Assembly: GCA_017431005.1 (NCBI GenBank)
Contig: JAFRLY010000024.1
Coordinates: 25,860-89,859 of the forward strand
DNA: 64,000 bases
Origin: Clostridia bacterium
Lineage (GTDB): Bacteria; Bacillota; Clostridia; Christensenellales; Aristaeellaceae
Reading direction: 5' to 3'
Of this stretch, positions 785 to 7,246 are shown piece by piece (the stretch's first letter is position 1; each line of letters starts with the position of its first letter). The translations under genes were made by a program, and so were the position numbers. The notes beneath the pieces are model-generated. The model was not told the DNA's origin. It ran no database searches and was given only the letters and a program-made list of their open reading frames with translations.

Positions 785-1138
785 CCGCGCAAGGTGAACA
801 GACGGCCGCGTGCCCTTCGGGCATGAGGAAAGTCCGGGCACCGCAGGGCAAGGGTGCCGGCTAACGGCCGGTGGAGGCGACTCCAAGGAAAGTGCAACAG
901 AAAGAAACCGCCGCGCGGTGTTTCGGCTCCGTGCGGTAAGGATGGAAAGGCGAGGTAAGAGCTCACCCGCGGCCTGGCGACTCGTCCGCGCTGTAAACCC
1001 CACCCGGTGCAAGATGCCAACGGAGGCAAGCCGGCTGCCCGCCGCGTCCTCCGGCAATCGCTCGAGCTCCGCGGTAACGCGGAGCCTGGATAGATGGCCG
1101 TTTCATACAGAACCCGGCTTACGGTCACGCTTGCGCGT
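785..1138 (+). ncRNA. rnpB: RNase P RNA, class A
   Basis: This is the catalytic RNA of ribonuclease P, which removes tRNA 5' leaders. Diagnostic conserved pieces occur in order: GAGGAAAGTCCGGGC (825-839), GTGCAACAGAAA, GGTAAGAGCTCACC-like core, GGTGCAAG, and the 3' conserved ACAGAACCCGGCTTAC (1107-1122). The ends are set by helix P1: CGCGCAAGGTGA (786-797) pairs with TCAC-CTTGCGCG (1125-1137) with one bulged G. A short T-run follows P1, so P1 may also serve termination. The length of about 353 nt is normal for class A. Reading frames crossing it are spurious. It converges on tadA, whose stop is only three bases away. Confidence 0.97.
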
Positions 1139-1772: not shown

Positions 1773-3221
1773 TCAGAATGCAGGCCGTTCGCGCATCATA
1801 CGGGATGCGTCGGATTCAGCGGAAGCGTCCGCTTCCTCCGGTTCAGCCGGGGCCTCAGGTTCCGCTTCTGCCGTTCCTGCTTCCGGGGCTTCCGCCGCTG
1901 TAAAGTCAGGCCGCACACGCATCAGCGTTGCCGGGTCGGTCGCAGCCGGTGCTTCAGCCGGTTCAGGTTCTGCCGGCGCTTCCGGTTCCGCCTCTTCGGG
2001 CTCAGCCGGGGCTTCGGGTTCCGCTTCTGCCGGTTCCGCCGCTTCCGGGGCTTCCGCCGCTGTAAAGTCGGGCCGTTCGCGCATCAGCGTCATCGGATCA
2101 GTTTCCGCCGGTGCTTCCGCCGGTTCGGGTTCAGCCGGAGCTTCCGCTTCTGCTGCTTCAGGCTCTGCCGGAGCTTCGGGCTTCGTGAAGACCGGCCGTT
2201 CGCGCATCAGAGCTGCCGGATCGGTTTCCGCCGGTTCGGGTTCAGCCGGAGCTTCCGCTTCTGCTGCTTCAGCCGTTTCCGGAGCCTTGATCTCCGTGAA
2301 GACGGGCCGTTCACGCATCAGCCTTGCCGGATCGGTTTCCGCCGGTGCTTCCGCCGGTTCGGGTTCTGCCGGAGCTTCCGCTTCAGCTGCTTCAGCATTT
2401 TCCGGAGCCTTGATTTCCGTGAAAACCGGCCGTTCGCGCATCAGCCTTGCCGGATCGGTCTCCGCCGGTGCTTCAGCCGGTTCGGGTTCAGCGGGAGTTT
2501 CCGCTTCTGCTGTTTCTGCCGTTTCCGGAGCCTTGATCTCCGTGAAGGCCGGCCGTTCACGCATCAGCCTTGCCGGATCGGCTTCCGCCGGTGCTTCGGC
2601 CTCTGTTTCCGCTGTTTCAGCCGTTTCCGGAGCCTTGATCTCCGTGAAAGCCGGCCGTTCGCGCATCAGCCTTGCCGGATCGGTCTCCGCCGGTGTTTCC
2701 GGGTCCGCCTGTTCAGGTTCGGCCTGTTCCGGGGCTTCCGTCACAGGTTCAGCTTCCGGTGTTTCCGCTTCGGCCTGTGCCGGCTGGGCAGGAGCCGGAT
2801 CCTCTATGGGTTCCGGTTCCTTCTCGCCGACCGCCTGGGCCATAATGTCCTCGATTGCTTCCTTGACGGATTCAGCCGAGTAGGTCAGGGATGCGCTTGT
2901 GATGGCGTCAGGAGCGATATCCTGATTCTCCACAACCGCGTTTGCCCACGCCGTCCGGATATCATCCGTCATCAGATCGCCGGCGCCGGAGGAGCTGATC
3001 GTGCAGTCCTTGATCGCCCGGTTTTCAATCGTCATATCCACCCGGACCGTGCTGAAGTTGTTCGTCTTCTGCGCGCTGTAGGTGCCGTCCTGCACTCTCG
3101 GGTCGATTTTGGGAATCTCATAGACCAGCTCCTTGCCCGCAAACAGGCCTGAGGCATAGACGGTCAGTCCGATCGCCGCGACCCCCGCCGCGCAGAGCTT
3201 GATCCATTGCTGCTTATTCAT
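1773..3221 (-). CDS. Membrane-anchored FMN-binding protein with eight MRERPxF repeats
   Basis: The protein has 482 residues. Residues about 7-28 form an uncleaved signal anchor with no lipobox. Residues about 40-130 are an FMN-binding domain ending in DAITSAS (105-111), which fits the ApbE flavinylation pattern D-x-x-[ST]-x-A-[ST]; Ser111 would carry the FMN. From about 131 to the C-terminus is an acidic Pro/Ala/Glu-rich region with eight copies of an (L/M)MR(E/V)RPxF motif. The first is at 185-192 and the last, MRERPAF, is the C-terminus itself. The gene starts 24 bp after the flavoprotein reductase gene and is very probably co-transcribed with it. By context it could be a surface electron carrier comparable to PplA of Listeria, but anchored by a helix rather than a lipid. 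The repeat function is unknown to me. Confidence 0.85.
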   Translation of the reverse strand: MNKQQWIKLCAAGVAAIGLTVYASGLFAGKELVYEIPKIDPRVQDGTYSAQKTNNFSTVRVDMTIENRAIKDCTISSSGAGDLMTDDIRTAWANAVVENQDIAPDAITSASLTYSAESVKEAIEDIMAQAVGEKEPEPIEDPAPAQPAQAEAETPEAEPVTEAPEQAEPEQADPETPAETDPARLMRERPAFTEIKAPETAETAETEAEAPAEADPARLMRERPAFTEIKAPETAETAEAETPAEPEPAEAPAETDPARLMRERPVFTEIKAPENAEAAEAEAPAEPEPAEAPAETDPARLMRERPVFTEIKAPETAEAAEAEAPAEPEPAETDPAALMRERPVFTKPEAPAEPEAAEAEAPAEPEPAEAPAETDPMTLMRERPDFTAAEAPEAAEPAEAEPEAPAEPEEAEPEAPAEPEPAEAPAATDPATLMRVRPDFTAAEAPEAGTAEAEPEAPAEPEEADASAESDASRMMRERPAF

Positions 3222-3245: not shown

Positions 3246-6047
3246 TTACTGATTGTCCGCGGTGACCGCCTTGGCAGCGGTCCGGCCGGAAACGAAGATC
3301 TCCACGATGGCATTGCCGCCCAGGCGGTTGCCGCCGTGAATACCGCCGGTCACCTCGCCCGCCGCGTACAGGCCGGGGATGATTTCGCCCGCCGCGTTCA
3401 GCACATGGCGGTCAGTGTCCACCACGACGCCGCCCATGGTGTGATGGGTGGAAGGCGCCATGAGACGGATGGTCAGCAGGGCGTTGTCCAGATCATATGT
3501 ATCCGGCAGATAGTTGCCCTTCTCATCCTTCTGTACGTTACCGACGGTGCGGGAAGCGATGGCCTTGCCCACGTCCGGATATTCACCCTGGCCCATGACA
3601 GCCGCGTCATAGTCCCGGATGGTTTTAATGACGACTTCCGGATCCGCTTCGATGCCCAGCTCCTTGAAGAGCTCCGGCAGCTGTCCGATGGTCCGGCGAT
3701 AGTAACGGCCTTCATAGTCGCCGTCCGCCAGCTGCATCGGAGCGGGCATCATCTGCTCGGCGTTGTAGAACTCCAGGAACACGCCCTTGGTGCCGTTGAC
3801 CTCGATGCCGTTGCGGAACTCAGCCAGGCTCAGCACGTCGCGCTCGGAGCCTTCATCCACGAACCGGTGGCCGGTGGTGGGGTTGATCCAGCAGGCGTAG
3901 TTGCCGCCGCCGAAGGCCAGGTTGCCGTTGTCGACCCAGGAGATGGGCATCATCTGGGTGAAGCCCAGGCCGGTTGTCGCCGCGCCGACAGCTTCCGCCA
4001 TGGTGATGCCGTCGCCCTTCAGGGAGGAGCGGTTGGTGGTCTTGGTGGCCTTGGAGATGTACTCGGTGGACCAGTAGATGTTGTTGTTCAGCACCATGTC
4101 CAGGTTCGCGGCATATCCGCCGGTGGCCAGGATAACGCCCTTGGAGGCCTTCACGGTCACAGGCGTTCCGTCATAGTGCACTGCCTTCACGCCCGTTACG
4201 CGGCCGTCTTCGACGATCAGGTCGGTCACGGTGGTACGGATCATGATGTTGTTCTTCTCGTTGGCAGTATACAGGGTCTTCATGGGAGCGGCAAAGTAGC
4301 TGCCCCAGCGGCCCATTTCGGGAGCGCCGTCGCCGTCCAGGTCGATATTGGAGCCGACGAACTCGTTTTCACGATACCAGAGCGCGCCTATCAGCGTGGG
4401 CTGTGAATCCTCCTTAAAGGAAGCTCCCTGCTCCTCGAGCCACTCCTTCAGGCCCTGGCCGTCCCGGATGAACTGGCTGACCAGGTCCACGTCGCCGTAG
4501 ATCCACTGGCTCTTGTCCGCGCTCTGGCGCAGACCGCCGTAGTAGGTCTGGAAGATATGCAGGTTCAGGGTGGAGAAGAGGGTCAGCTGGCCCTCGGCCA
4601 GTCCTTCGTCCAGCTTGGGCTGCGCCCAGTCGAGATAGGCCTGGATTTCCTTCTTCAGTTCCTGCAGGATGGGCAGATACTCAGCATGCACGCCGTGCTT
4701 GCTCAGCTCGGCCGCGTCGCCCGCCACAAACTCGTTTTCCTTGTAGAATTCTTCATCAAAGGGCTCTTCAGACCAGTTCAGAATCATCTTCAGCTCGTCG
4801 ATGCAGCCCTGCACGGACTTGACCTTCGGATAGGTTTCGCCGGTGAAGGCATAAACGCCGGTCTCCGCGTCCGGATCTGCCGGATCCCAGACCAGATAGG
4901 GCATCACAGACTGATACTGACCGCCGGAAACCAGGGTGTTGCCGCCGACTTCCGCGTTCTTTTCAATGACCAGCACGGTGTGGCCGTCCTGTGCCGCCTG
5001 TGCTGCTGCAGCCATGCCGGCGCCGCCCGCGCCGACGACCACCACGTCATATTCGAGCTCCACGGGAGCGCCCGCGGGATGCTCCACCTTGGCAGCCTTG
5101 AAGGCGTCCAGATCGGAGCAGCCGGCCTGCTCAGCGGTGTCAAGCACGCAGCTGCGCAGCGCACGGGTGGAGAAGGTCGCGCCGGAAACGCCGTCCACGC
5201 CGGCGCCGTTGCAGGCCAGCATGTCCGGAATCATGATATCAAACGCCACATCGCCCACATGCGCGGTTTCAACGCTGGAGACGATTTCAACATTCTCGAT
5301 CGCGGAATCGCTGTAAGTCACCTTCACAGTCAGGGGCCCGTTGTAGCCTTCCGCCGTGGCTGTATATTCGCCGGCTGTAAAGCTCAGCGCCACGTCCTCC
5401 GCCGGGGCGGCGCCTTCGCCGCGGGCCGCGGCCAGAGCGGCTTCAACCGCTTCCTTCACACCGTCACGGGTCATGGTCGCGCCGGCCGCGGCGTCGATGT
5501 CGCCGTCCGCGCGGCCGATCAGAGCCGCCGCATAGGCCTCAAACTGCGGGATGCCGAAGGGCTCCTCACCGGCGCCTTCGATCTCAGCCGCGGTGATTCC
5601 TTTTTCGTCCACGGTGATTTTCACGGTTACCGGGGTCGTCTCGCTGAAGCCCTTTCCGGAGCCTTCATAGGTGCCGGGAATCAGCGCGCCGCTGTTTCCG
5701 CCGCCCTGCGCGGCAGCCAGAGCAGTCTCAACCGCTTCCTTCACGCCGTCACGGGTCATGGTCGCGCCGGCCGCGGCGTCGATGTCGCCGTCCGCGCGGC
5801 CGATCAGAGCCGCCGCGTAAGCCTCAAACTGCGGGATACCGAAGGGTTGCTCACCGGCGCCTTCGATCTCAGCAGCAGTAATCCCGTTCTCATCCACGGT
5901 GATTTTGACCGTCACCGGGGTTGTTTCACTGAAGCCTTTTCCGGAGCCTTCATAGGTTCCGGGAACAAACGTGCCGCCCTCCGCGACACAGACAGCGGAG
6001 CCCAGCACAAGGCACAGGCAAAGTAACCATGCGACAATTTTCCTCAT
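3246..6047 (-). CDS. Secreted FMN/FAD fumarate-reductase-like flavoprotein, three FMN-binding domains
   Basis: The protein has 933 residues. A signal peptide (about 1-22) is followed by three FMN-binding domains at about 28-120, 123-212 and 220-305. An FAD_binding_2 domain starts at VVVVGAGGAG (about 335). Domain 3 has the classic flavinylation motif DGVSGAT (285-291); domains 1 and 2 have DAAAGAT, ending at Thr96 and Thr191. FAD-domain active-site signatures of the fumarate reductase/urocanate reductase family are present: GHRFVDE, HHTMGG and HGGNRLGG. In this family electrons pass from ApbE-attached FMN to FAD, which reduces an enoate such as fumarate or urocanate; the substrate cannot be read from sequence. 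I chose the ATG at 6045-6047 for its GGAGG and clean signal peptide. Domains 1 and 2 differ at only 5 of 88 residues, so the duplication is recent. Confidence 0.93.
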   Translation of the reverse strand: MRKIVAWLLCLCLVLGSAVCVAEGGTFVPGTYEGSGKGFSETTPVTVKITVDENGITAAEIEGAGEQPFGIPQFEAYAAALIGRADGDIDAAAGATMTRDGVKEAVETALAAAQGGGNSGALIPGTYEGSGKGFSETTPVTVKITVDEKGITAAEIEGAGEEPFGIPQFEAYAAALIGRADGDIDAAAGATMTRDGVKEAVEAALAAARGEGAAPAEDVALSFTAGEYTATAEGYNGPLTVKVTYSDSAIENVEIVSSVETAHVGDVAFDIMIPDMLACNGAGVDGVSGATFSTRALRSCVLDTAEQAGCSDLDAFKAAKVEHPAGAPVELEYDVVVVGAGGAGMAAAAQAAQDGHTVLVIEKNAEVGGNTLVSGGQYQSVMPYLVWDPADPDAETGVYAFTGETYPKVKSVQGCIDELKMILNWSEEPFDEEFYKENEFVAGDAAELSKHGVHAEYLPILQELKKEIQAYLDWAQPKLDEGLAEGQLTLFSTLNLHIFQTYYGGLRQSADKSQWIYGDVDLVSQFIRDGQGLKEWLEEQGASFKEDSQPTLIGALWYRENEFVGSNIDLDGDGAPEMGRWGSYFAAPMKTLYTANEKNNIMIRTTVTDLIVEDGRVTGVKAVHYDGTPVTVKASKGVILATGGYAANLDMVLNNNIYWSTEYISKATKTTNRSSLKGDGITMAEAVGAATTGLGFTQMMPISWVDNGNLAFGGGNYACWINPTTGHRFVDEGSERDVLSLAEFRNGIEVNGTKGVFLEFYNAEQMMPAPMQLADGDYEGRYYRRTIGQLPELFKELGIEADPEVVIKTIRDYDAAVMGQGEYPDVGKAIASRTVGNVQKDEKGNYLPDTYDLDNALLTIRLMAPSTHHTMGGVVVDTDRHVLNAAGEIIPGLYAAGEVTGGIHGGNRLGGNAIVEIFVSGRTAAKAVTADNQ
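5418..5966 (-). repeat. Tandem duplication of an FMN-binding domain, 285-bp period
   Basis: The segments 5703-5966 and 5418-5681 encode 88-residue copies differing at five positions. They are direct repeats inside the reductase gene and a potential site of unequal recombination. Confidence 0.85.
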
Positions 6048-6107
6048 TTTCTTTCCTCCTCCGGATCTCTGTCTGGGAATATAAGAAAGGAATACCGATA
6101 GAATACC

Positions 6108-6144
6108 TTGGTAAAATAATACCAAAAACAGCCCTCATCGTCAA
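6108..6144 (-). promoter_or_regulatory. Reductase operon promoter with palindrome over the -10
   Basis: On the minus strand TTGACG (6139-6144), a 17-base spacer and TATTAT (6116-6121) form a good sigma-A promoter. TTGGTA (6108-6113) and TACCAA (6120-6125) form an inverted repeat with a 6-base spacer that covers the -10 box, as expected for a repressor operator. Two GAATACC direct repeats lie just downstream. The regulator is not identifiable. Confidence 0.7.
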
Positions 6145-6172: not shown

Positions 6173-6201
6173 TTGAACCGGTGCGCCCAATGGGTTATAA
6201 T
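6173..6201 (+). promoter_or_regulatory. Promoter of the EetA/EetB-like operon
   Basis: TTGAAC (6173-6178), a 17-base spacer and TATAAT (6196-6201) face right, back to back with the reductase promoter. The first gene starts at 6274 after AAGGAG (6261-6266). Confidence 0.8.
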
Positions 6202-6273
6202 CTCCTCATCTTACCGTCCCCCGAACGCGAAGGGTTCCCGGGCGGTATGCCTCAGCTGCGAAGGAGAAGACCG

Positions 6274-6711
6274 ATGAAAACAATCCGCGGGTGTACCCTG
6301 TGTCTGGTGCTGCTGTCCGTATTGCTCCTGCTGACCGCATGTGCGCCCCGTTCTGAAGTGCCTGAATCCGGCAGCCTGCGGGTGCTGGTGGACGGAAAAC
6401 CGGTGCAGGCCGGAACGCGGAAAGCGTCGGCCGAAGAAGCGCAGGTGTGGTTCACCCTGGAGGGGAACCTCCTGCTGACCCTGCCCTTTTCCGAAGCGCA
6501 CGAGGTGTCCATCCTGCAGGAGGACGGCAGCGAAAACACAGTCCGCATGACCGGTTCCGCTGTCTATATGGAAAAAGTGAACTGTCCGCACGAGGACTGC
6601 GTGCAGATGGGTGAAGTGACGCTGGAAAACCTGGAGTACCGGCCTCTGGGCGGTTTTCTTGTCTGCCTGCCTCACAGGCTGACCGTGGAGGTGCGGGAAC
6701 ATGCGGACTGA
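6274..6711 (+). CDS. NusG domain II lipoprotein, EetA-like
   Basis: This 145-residue lipoprotein has a hydrophobic signal ending in the lipobox LTAC (Cys23). It is followed by a NusG domain II fold, recognisable from VNCPHEDCV and the ending LVCLPHRLTVEV. Proteins of this type are encoded beside Gx-type membrane proteins in Gram-positive electron-transfer loci, where the pair is called EetA/EetB and is thought to move electrons across the membrane. The start ATG at 6274 has AAGGAG seven bases upstream; longer in-frame starts lack the signal peptide arrangement. It overlaps the next gene by 11 bp. Conserved cysteines in CPHEDC could bind a cofactor or form a disulphide. NusG-II proteins without electron-transfer roles also exist, so the role comes from context. 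Confidence 0.85.
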   Translation: MKTIRGCTLCLVLLSVLLLLTACAPRSEVPESGSLRVLVDGKPVQAGTRKASAEEAQVWFTLEGNLLLTLPFSEAHEVSILQEDGSENTVRMTGSAVYMEKVNCPHEDCVQMGEVTLENLEYRPLGGFLVCLPHRLTVEVREHAD

Positions 6712-7246
6712 TGCCATGAAAATCGCGCGGTTCGCCATGCTGACCGCGCTGGCCCTCGTGCTGGGTTATTTTGACCGGGCCATTCCCCTGAGCGCGGTGC
6801 TGGGAGGCGCCGTGCCCGGGATCAAGCTGGGACTGGCCAACACGGTCCTGCTTTACGGCGTTTATATGCTGCGTCCCGGGGCCTGCGTCCTGCTGATGCT
6901 GGCCAAGGTGCTGCTGTCCGGATTCCTTTTCGGCTCCCTGAGCGCGATTCTCTACAGTCTTTCCGGCGGCGTGCTGAGCCTGGCCGTCATGCTGGCTGTA
7001 TCCGCCCTGACCGGTCACCGCAAAGGCTTTGCTGTCATCATCACCTCGCTGGCCGGCGCTGTATTTCATAATGTGGGGCAGATTCTGGCCGCTGCCGCTG
7101 TGCTGCGCACGCCCCGTCTGCTGGTCACCTATCTGCCTGTGCTGGTGGCTGTCGGCGCCGTGGTGGGATGTCTGACAGGTATCATTGCCCGGCTTGTTTT
7201 CCGTGCACTACAAAAAACCCCGGCTGCCGCCGGGGATAAGCGCTGA
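6701..7246 (+). CDS. Gx-type membrane protein, EetB-like (Hpre_diP_synt_I family)
   Basis: This 181-residue protein has about five membrane segments. Its N-terminal region ALALVLGYFDRAIP and the segment GAVPGIKLGLANTV match the family annotated as Gx transporter or heptaprenyl diphosphate synthase component I, which is related to ECF S-components. It overlaps the NusG-II gene by 11 bp, so the two are translationally coupled. In Listeria-type loci the equivalent protein (EetB) is needed for extracellular electron transfer. The last codons contain a GC-rich hairpin that works as a terminator for the opposite strand. A prenyl synthase function is unlikely. Family assignment is confident; the electron-transfer role is inferred from the neighbouring flavinylated proteins. 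Confidence 0.87.
   Translation: MRTDAMKIARFAMLTALALVLGYFDRAIPLSAVLGGAVPGIKLGLANTVLLYGVYMLRPGACVLLMLAKVLLSGFLFGSLSAILYSLSGGVLSLAVMLAVSALTGHRKGFAVIITSLAGAVFHNVGQILAAAAVLRTPRLLVTYLPVLVAVGAVVGCLTGIIARLVFRALQKTPAAAGDKR
7212..7234 (-). terminator. Minus-strand terminator inside the 3' end of the EetB-like gene
   Basis: On the minus strand CCCCGGC-GGCA-GCCGGGG is followed by six T residues. It lies 23 bp beyond the stop of the secreted protein gene ending at 7257 and overlaps coding sequence of the opposite strand. Confidence 0.85.

Follow-up and report, generated by a model that had tools for sequence, protein, structure and literature searches.

The array protein and its locus

The window (the whole stretch of 64,000 nucleotides that was analysed) carries on its minus strand a gene for a protein in which an anchor-like N-terminus and an FMN_bind-type domain are followed by an acidic tail with an array of short motif copies. 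A single occurrence of the array protein was found in the genome of the window (G000). The features of the locus were as follows.

1773..3221, minus strand: array protein, 482 aa, with anchor-like N-terminus, FMN_bind-type domain and acidic tail with eight motif copies
3141..3200, minus strand: putative membrane anchor or signal at approximately residues 8-27 (weak by hydropathy, with a window value of 1.82 at residue 9)
2832..3083, minus strand: FMN_bind-type domain, residues 47-130 (profile matches to PDB 8p2b and 8p2a; iterated profile)
2889..2909, minus strand: flavinylation site DAITSAS, deviating from the Dxx[ST]GA[ST] rule by S in place of G, with S as the final residue
2646..2681, minus strand: motif copy 1, DPARLMRERPAF
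2544..2579, minus strand: motif copy 2, DPARLMRERPAF
2421..2456, minus strand: motif copy 3, DPARLMRERPVF
2298..2333, minus strand: motif copy 4, DPARLMRERPVF
2187..2222, minus strand: motif copy 5, DPAALMRERPVF
2064..2099, minus strand: motif copy 6, DPMTLMRERPDF
1902..1937, minus strand: motif copy 7, DPATLMRVRPDF
1776..1811, minus strand: motif copy 8, DASRMMRERPAF, forming the C-terminus
3246..6125, minus strand: upstream gene after a 24-base gap, fumarate-reductase-like flavoprotein with three FMN_bind domains; signal-like N-terminus, gene probably starting at 6047
6181..7246, plus strand: NusG-domain-II gene and heptaprenyl diphosphate synthase component I gene (Pfam)

The tail comprises 347 residues (136-482), chiefly A, E, P and T, and has a net charge of -71 (97 D/E vs 26 K/R). 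All 21 arginines and all eight phenylalanines of the tail are contained in the motif cores. The first-pass annotation had described eight copies of [LM]MR[EV]RPxF in this acidic tail, with the last copy as the extreme C-terminus. Both claims were borne out: all eight copies match, with E in seven and V in one at the [EV] position, the coordinates of the minus-strand reading frame are exact, and the protein sequence ends with copy 8. The [LM] residues are located at positions 185, 219, 260, 301, 338, 379, 433 and 475, giving a spacing of 34-54 residues. Each copy had also been described as preceded by D-x-x or D-x-x-x; D was found exactly four residues before [LM] in all eight copies, and the shorter form was never seen. 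When residues 136-482 were shuffled in 20,000 rounds, the pattern occurred 0.00005 times on average and once at most, against the eight copies observed. By hydropathy, the putative anchor or signal segment has a similar placement in the proteins of G037, G228 and G247.

A Pfam scan of the window protein did not reach FMN_bind (PF04205), and NCBIfam gave the protein no name. However, when a profile of 69 relatives (A4) was compared with solved structures, the FMN_bind structures 8p2b (E 3e-15) and 8p2a (1.2e-7) were matched, and an iterated search from the window domain arrived at the FMN_bind domains of the adjoining reductase, which are themselves recognised by Pfam. The relative in G037 scored 19.1-22 bits towards PF04205 in two scans (cut-off 22). 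The ApbE flavinylation site, given as Dxx[ST]GA[ST] in the available portion of PMC12052999, is present in the G037 relative (DAVTGAT), but was altered in the window protein (DAITSAS) and in G228 and G247 (DVISSAS). According to the same portion of that article, a change of Gly to Ala in the site lowers flavinylation to about half and Ser is usable, and partial flavinylation function is therefore possible. The structure-profile match, together with DAITSAS instead of Dxx[ST]GA[ST], indicates that by domain sequence similarity the window protein is a member of the FMN_bind family in which flavin attachment is uncertain. The earlier label of an FMN-binding protein thus stands for the family, whereas Pfam alone falls short of it and the flavinylation site is altered. 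The window domain is a relative of SaFMN3 and CbFMN4 (Tong et al. 2023, PMC10339131; PDB 8p2a, 8p2b). In the available text of that paper, the domains are set apart by unstructured linkers of small residues; flexibility is mentioned, and no repeated motif.

Distribution and conservation of the motif

A profile search of other genomes, as proposed in the first-pass annotation, revealed that the motif recurs. With motif profile A3, arrays were found in 23 of 308 family genomes, namely in 3 of the 45 genomes of the window's genus (the first genus) and in 20 of the 28 genomes of a second genus. At E 0.005 the profile matched 26 of the 308 genomes, and three of these were set aside as chance, each having one copy in a short frame of 47-77 aa. 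At threshold, one array protein was found in each of the 23 genomes, G231 aside, where the gene is seemingly split over two contigs. Most of the genomes searched were incomplete MAG-like assemblies. Within the window's genus the nearest relative is a 382-aa frame in G037, with four DGSRFMRER[PL] copies and a degenerate fifth copy at the C-terminus. Early DNA patterns, with Met fixed at +1, missed most members and found 9 array genomes, in which the motif already turned up on other proteins. With profile A2 the count rose to 14 for the second genus, comprising 13 profile matches and the separately found G236, and to 3 for the first. Reading of the linkers revealed motif forms with Thr, Val or Ala replacing Met.

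In a sample of 391 genomes from the class, the window's genome alone had an array. When the narrower profile A2 was run on 396 genomes sampled from the order, it detected four members of the family and, apart from these, three lone copies, among them one in a frame of 905 aa. A species collection was searched with the full-length protein as query, resulting in 393 pattern stretches, none of which was confirmed as a relative. A two-copy DNA pattern gave 117 stretches in the collection, and array-like frames (at least two MRxRP with acidic spacers) were seen in RUG14645, S12M_St_22, RUG12338, RUG311 and RUG13043 only. These five MAGs are Clostridiales or Clostridia and were already counted among the family array genomes; four of them belong to the RUG series, which we take to be of rumen origin. 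The remaining frames with at least two copies were arginine-rich, resembled shadow frames or unrelated repeats, and were rejected. The same DNA pattern matched seven viral contigs, none with an array; since it requires ATG and CGN codons, it would miss other codon choices. Lone copies outside the two genera, in G390 (73-aa frame), G379 (NNIETLMREKPAVAK, L297, at the C-terminus of a 148-aa frame), G180 (DITRMVRPRP, L383:1680-1856, 59-aa frame) and G058 and G177 (frames of 47 and 77 aa) were taken as chance. A match in G474, DIERFMRTRP in a 905-aa frame with a CxxC motif, was not considered an array.

Among 120 genome-weighted units, D was found at -4 in 77%, R/K at -1 in 87%, Met at +1 in 76% (Thr in 17%), P at +5 in 97% and A or V at +6 in 76%, with F, Y, L or M at position 0, R at +2 and R/K at +4. 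The expression used to define a unit fixes [LMFY] at 0, [MTVAF] at +1, R at +2, [RK] at +4 and [PLAF] at +5, and leaves D-4 and R/K-1 free; end limits in unit counting cost one unit each in G225 and G238. The F part of the motif is weak, as F+7 was present in 27% of the weighted units. In G225, G231, G233, G238 and G243, Met+1 was swapped for Thr, Val or Ala in all units read.

Within arrays, pN/pS was 0.17 at R+2, R+4 and P+5, 0.78 at -3, -2 and +3 and 0.63-0.71 in the flanks, and between genomes the corresponding values were 0.19, 1.07 and 0.82-0.90, a contrast that is inflated because the units were chosen by an expression fixing the conserved positions. In the window array alone, 35 synonymous and no non-synonymous differences were observed at R+2, R+4 and P+5, with a pN/pS of 0.40-0.44 in the flanks. 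The location of arginine depends less on the expression: in the 18 arrays with at least three units, 292 of 298 arginines lie inside the cores, which make up 25-64% of the length. Acidic spacers were present in all 18. The 13 C-terminal arrays all end in a copy, with the Pro position (Phe in G037) 0-7 residues from the C-terminus. Copy number ranged from 1 to 11 and spacing from 14 to 135 residues across arrays, and in G236 a full copy is accompanied by a degenerate one. In G244, nine of the ten intervals follow a period of 19 residues, which points to frequent duplication. In the acidic FMN-protein linkers of 20 loci, the motif was seen in the locus of G037 only. A conserved motif was thus found in a variable chain that looks disordered, as judged from composition. 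The first-pass annotation had held that a motif missing from orthologues, or varying freely at R, P and F, would be drift in a low-complexity tail. R, R and P, positions that the expression partly or wholly fixes, persist throughout the 23 genomes, in both genera and on several kinds of host, and D-4 and R/K-1 are retained although the expression leaves them free. The motif behaves as a selected unit and not as composition drift; the F was not kept in this way, and 42 of the 45 genomes of the window's genus showed no array.

Host proteins and gene neighbourhood

Four host types were observed. All are FMN_bind-type and/or NrfA-like where the host module was seen (22 of 23 genomes), and in the genomes searched the array is confined to this pathway. 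Hosts with a single FMN domain and a C-terminal array are found in G000 (window), G037, G228 and G247, and RnfG-type hosts, in which two or three FMN domains precede a C-terminal array, in G230, G239, G242, G244 and G245. In G223, the contig of which begins inside the array, the frame immediately precedes rnfC-, D-, E- and A-like genes and so occupies the place of rnfG. TIGR01947 scores of 136.2 (G230), 149.4 (G239) and 117.6 bits (G242) all passed the cut-off of 102, and rnfC- and rnfD-like genes following the array-bearing rnfG were found in G230 and G239. NrfA-like pentahaem hosts with a C-terminal array occur in G004, G236 and G237. FMN-array-NrfA chains, with the array as a linker, occur in G222, G224, G225, G229, G231, G233, G234, G238, G243 and G246; in G233 one motif copy is located between FMN domains. 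In those FMN-array-NrfA proteins that were read (L348, L349, L350, L351, L352, L378-L381), a short stretch resembling a coiled coil (IAELEARVAELEAAA) is usually located just ahead of the array. Pfam matches to PGM_PMM_IV and PARP on the tail of G037 were ascribed to low-complexity matching.

The NrfA-like proteins are of the pentahaem cytochrome c552 type by PF02335, which was above cut-off in 24 of 45 first-genus and 27 of 28 second-genus genomes. Five haem motifs, CxxCK first, were present in 50 of 51 NrfA frames, and the remaining frame is interrupted by a contig end. For one G000 protein, the NCBIfam NrfA models were below cut-off (197.8 of 595 and 162.2 of 692.5). The array was located on the fused chain in all 12 array genomes with NrfA fused to FMN domains, G237 and G231 being scored as fused from broken or contig-split frames. 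Where NrfA stands alone, the array was on an FMN or RnfG protein in 10 of 11 genomes, the exception being G004 with the array on NrfA itself. In G237 (L109:3559-5385) the NrfA host gene is broken upstream into several frames that contain FMN_bind pieces, due to assembly error or decay. The idea that the array substitutes for covalent fusion fits the first genus, in which 3 of the 5 genomes with an unfused NrfA, but none of the 19 with a fused one, carry arrays (in one of the 19, G020, NrfA is fused to a reductase). The second genus had no such trend (8 of 12 unfused vs 12 of 15 fused) and the idea was therefore not adopted.

When array location was scored with five labels (one being 'none') on a tree of 50 NrfA domains, 12 changes were needed, compared to a shuffled mean of 21.4. 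The well-supported branches alone force three changes for FMN tails and two for RnfG tails, in a tree of domains and not of species. The location of the array is clustered, yet the array has changed host more than once. A deeply separate NrfA-like clade with a 100/100 branch was observed for G000, G037, G010 and G005 (L414:7636-8826, L417:5175-6377, L260, L261); in G000 and G037 its members have a signal-like start, and no rnf-like gene was present in the stretches read.

Except for proteins scored with NCBIfam models, the assignment of anchors, signal peptides, maturation genes, apbE and several rnf genes was made by eye. In the window, G228 and G247 the array gene is next after the fumarate-reductase-like flavoprotein gene, with NusG-II-like and heptaprenyl diphosphate synthase-like genes nearby. 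In related loci, look-alikes of the latter two were seen (by eye) in the vicinity of array, apbE-like and rnf genes. The gene set of G230 and G239 comprises an apbE-like gene, the array-bearing rnfG, rnfC and rnfD, and in G004 and G228 rnfC-D/G-E-A-B-nrfA-like genes are followed by two cytochrome c maturation-type genes. None of the FMN_bind matches in the window's genome (85% complete) resembles RnfG, and the link to Rnf is therefore drawn by analogy there. NrfA of the window's genome lies beside two maturation-type genes and its start resembles a cleavable signal, as in G037, while that of G228 has an anchor-like start (both by eye). Net charge is -21 to -36 for the NrfA domains and -68 for the window reductase; genomes with and without arrays do not differ in the acidity of NrfA. 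Downstream of the array gene, a deaminase-like gene (tadA type) adjoins an RNase P RNA of class A (790-1137, plus strand of the window; Rfam RF00010, 239 bits).

Possible role of the array

The same motif on several extracytosolic electron-transfer proteins of some gut-type Clostridia suggests a docking device. As it is found as tail or linker on different members of the pathway, its job would likely be to hold the pathway together and not to serve one enzyme. A possible explanation, which we favour tentatively and which the first-pass annotation had raised in the form of a docking array, is that the tail serves an extracytosolic electron-transfer chain as a putative multivalent docking segment. 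Each unit would form a short helical turn with D as N-cap, then Pro/Ala, Ser/Ala, Arg/Lys and a bulky hydrophobic residue (usually Met), followed by R-x-R-P. At helix N-termini, D followed by Pro/Ala and Ser/Ala fits an N-cap, and this residue order suggests such a turn. The unit would be nearly the sole cationic, sticky element of a long extended acidic chain, held outside the membrane by the host. Acidic redox partners would be bound weakly and many at once, with fumarate-reductase-like flavoproteins (the upstream gene of the window encodes a candidate client), NrfA-like cytochromes and other members of the Rnf-FMN-NrfA wire as candidates. The reductases would thereby be kept within electron-hopping distance of the anchored FMN domains. 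The array is not bound to one host, as it forms the C-terminus of FMN, RnfG or NrfA proteins in some genomes and an FMN-NrfA linker in others. Electrostatic multivalent docking is suggested by the presence of cationic elements among strongly acidic partners. In the window's genome, the signal-like starts of both NrfA and the reductase (by eye) and the position of the reductase gene, 24 bases upstream of the array gene, speak for docking. Counting against docking, no partner domain was found, the FMN-array-NrfA chains already link their redox modules, NrfA is no less acidic where arrays are missing, and 8 of 28 second-genus and 42 of 45 first-genus genomes showed no array, many of the genomes being incomplete. 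Array-less genomes with unfused NrfA are G003, G010, G220, G221, G226 and G241.

A neutral or structural repeat, in which the spacer has grown by tandem duplication and the arginines balance charge or prevent collapse without specific binding, appears rather unlikely. The free variation in copy number and spacing, the regular period of G244 and the motif-less acidic linkers that serve as linkers in genus mates would all fit, but one motif on different hosts in two genera, the retention of R, R and P while -3, -2 and +3 vary, the spacers nearly without arginine and the copy terminating every C-terminal array do not. The arginine motifs could also bind teichoic acids, peptidoglycan carboxylates or the S-layer and thereby fix the height of the protein in the wall. 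Polyanions suit basic motifs, the hosts are extracytosolic, and SLH, Rib, FIVAR or LysM wall-binding proteins occur in other multi-flavinylated clusters described in the available text of PMC8238504. A Pfam scan of 7 of the 23 array proteins found no SLH, Rib, FIVAR or LysM domain, and another wall device could therefore be needed. We nevertheless regard a wall tether as unlikely: hosts whose start was seen have an anchor-like N-terminal segment (by eye), the spacers render the tail strongly negative overall, arrays are found in linkers and not in tails alone, and the kept D-4, hydrophobic residue at 0 and Met+1 exceed the needs of a polyanion binder.

The redox protein hosts and the common Met+1 could point to a cofactor array, in which R-x-R-P, Met and the aromatic residue bind free flavins (phosphate plus ring), haem or quinone as a relay or flavin store. 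This is very improbable, since all units read in five genomes have Thr, Val or Ala instead of Met+1, the aromatic residue at +7 is weak, and the support for it is chemical. We know of no flavin or haem site that resembles an R-x-R-P array unit. The repeated units, acidic spacers and C-terminal last copy are also features of multi-core peptide precursors, from which proteolysis at arginines would free several near-identical peptides. Such a precursor is the least probable of the explanations and hardly credible for redox protein hosts: cleavage would halve the FMN-array-NrfA chains, and inspection by eye of the gene starts in eight loci revealed no enzyme for modification or export.

No description of the motif was found in open-licence full-text literature searched with pathway terms, docking/disorder terms and motif strings, and to our knowledge it is unlike any short linear motif. 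Short conserved stickers, soluble acidic spacers and variable copy number and spacing are shared with sticker-and-spacer motif arrays, whereas the array described here is bacterial, located outside the membrane and carried by electron-transfer proteins. It is conceivable, though decidedly speculative, that one array protein per genome condenses secreted reductases around Rnf into a surface electron-transfer cluster, the array having moved between RnfG, FMN and cytochrome proteins as a non-covalent alternative or supplement to fused multi-flavin, multi-haem wires. A motif recurring on different links of one chain gives a direct handle, as a peptide that can be synthesised, mutated or used as bait. 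Should the array indeed dock reductases, it would represent a modular connector in the extracellular electron transfer of nitrite/fumarate-type respiration, a process that competes with methanogenesis for the reducing power available in the rumen.

Multi-flavinylated extracytosolic proteins, including RnfG with multihaem domains in Christensenellales, have been described (Meheust et al. 2021, PMC8238504). The hosts in that study are likewise proteins with several FMN_bind domains, Rnf, multihaem modules and fumarate-reductase-like partners; its main text, in contrast, does not contain the words linker or disordered, and its available parts report no motif array, whereas a conserved motif is present in the linkers and tails described here. 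Fast-evolving repeats that add disordered segments are also known from the tandem-repeat regions of Borgs (PMC9879509), but in the available text of that article the repeats arise independently, whereas one motif in one pathway is seen here.

Fused chains of other kinds were observed as well. In G020 (L039:1764-4688), a 974-aa ORF consists of a fumarate-reductase-like flavoprotein (FMN_bind and FAD-type domain) fused to an NrfA-like pentahaem cytochrome; it adjoins a multi-FMN protein and was named, by eye, a two-acceptor reductase. Giant anchored chains of 999-1152 aa were found in genus g1 (L033, L035, L036, L037 and L044), and the four that were read contain two FMN_bind types and a pentahaem NrfA module in varying order, joined by acidic P/A/E/K linkers without the motif.
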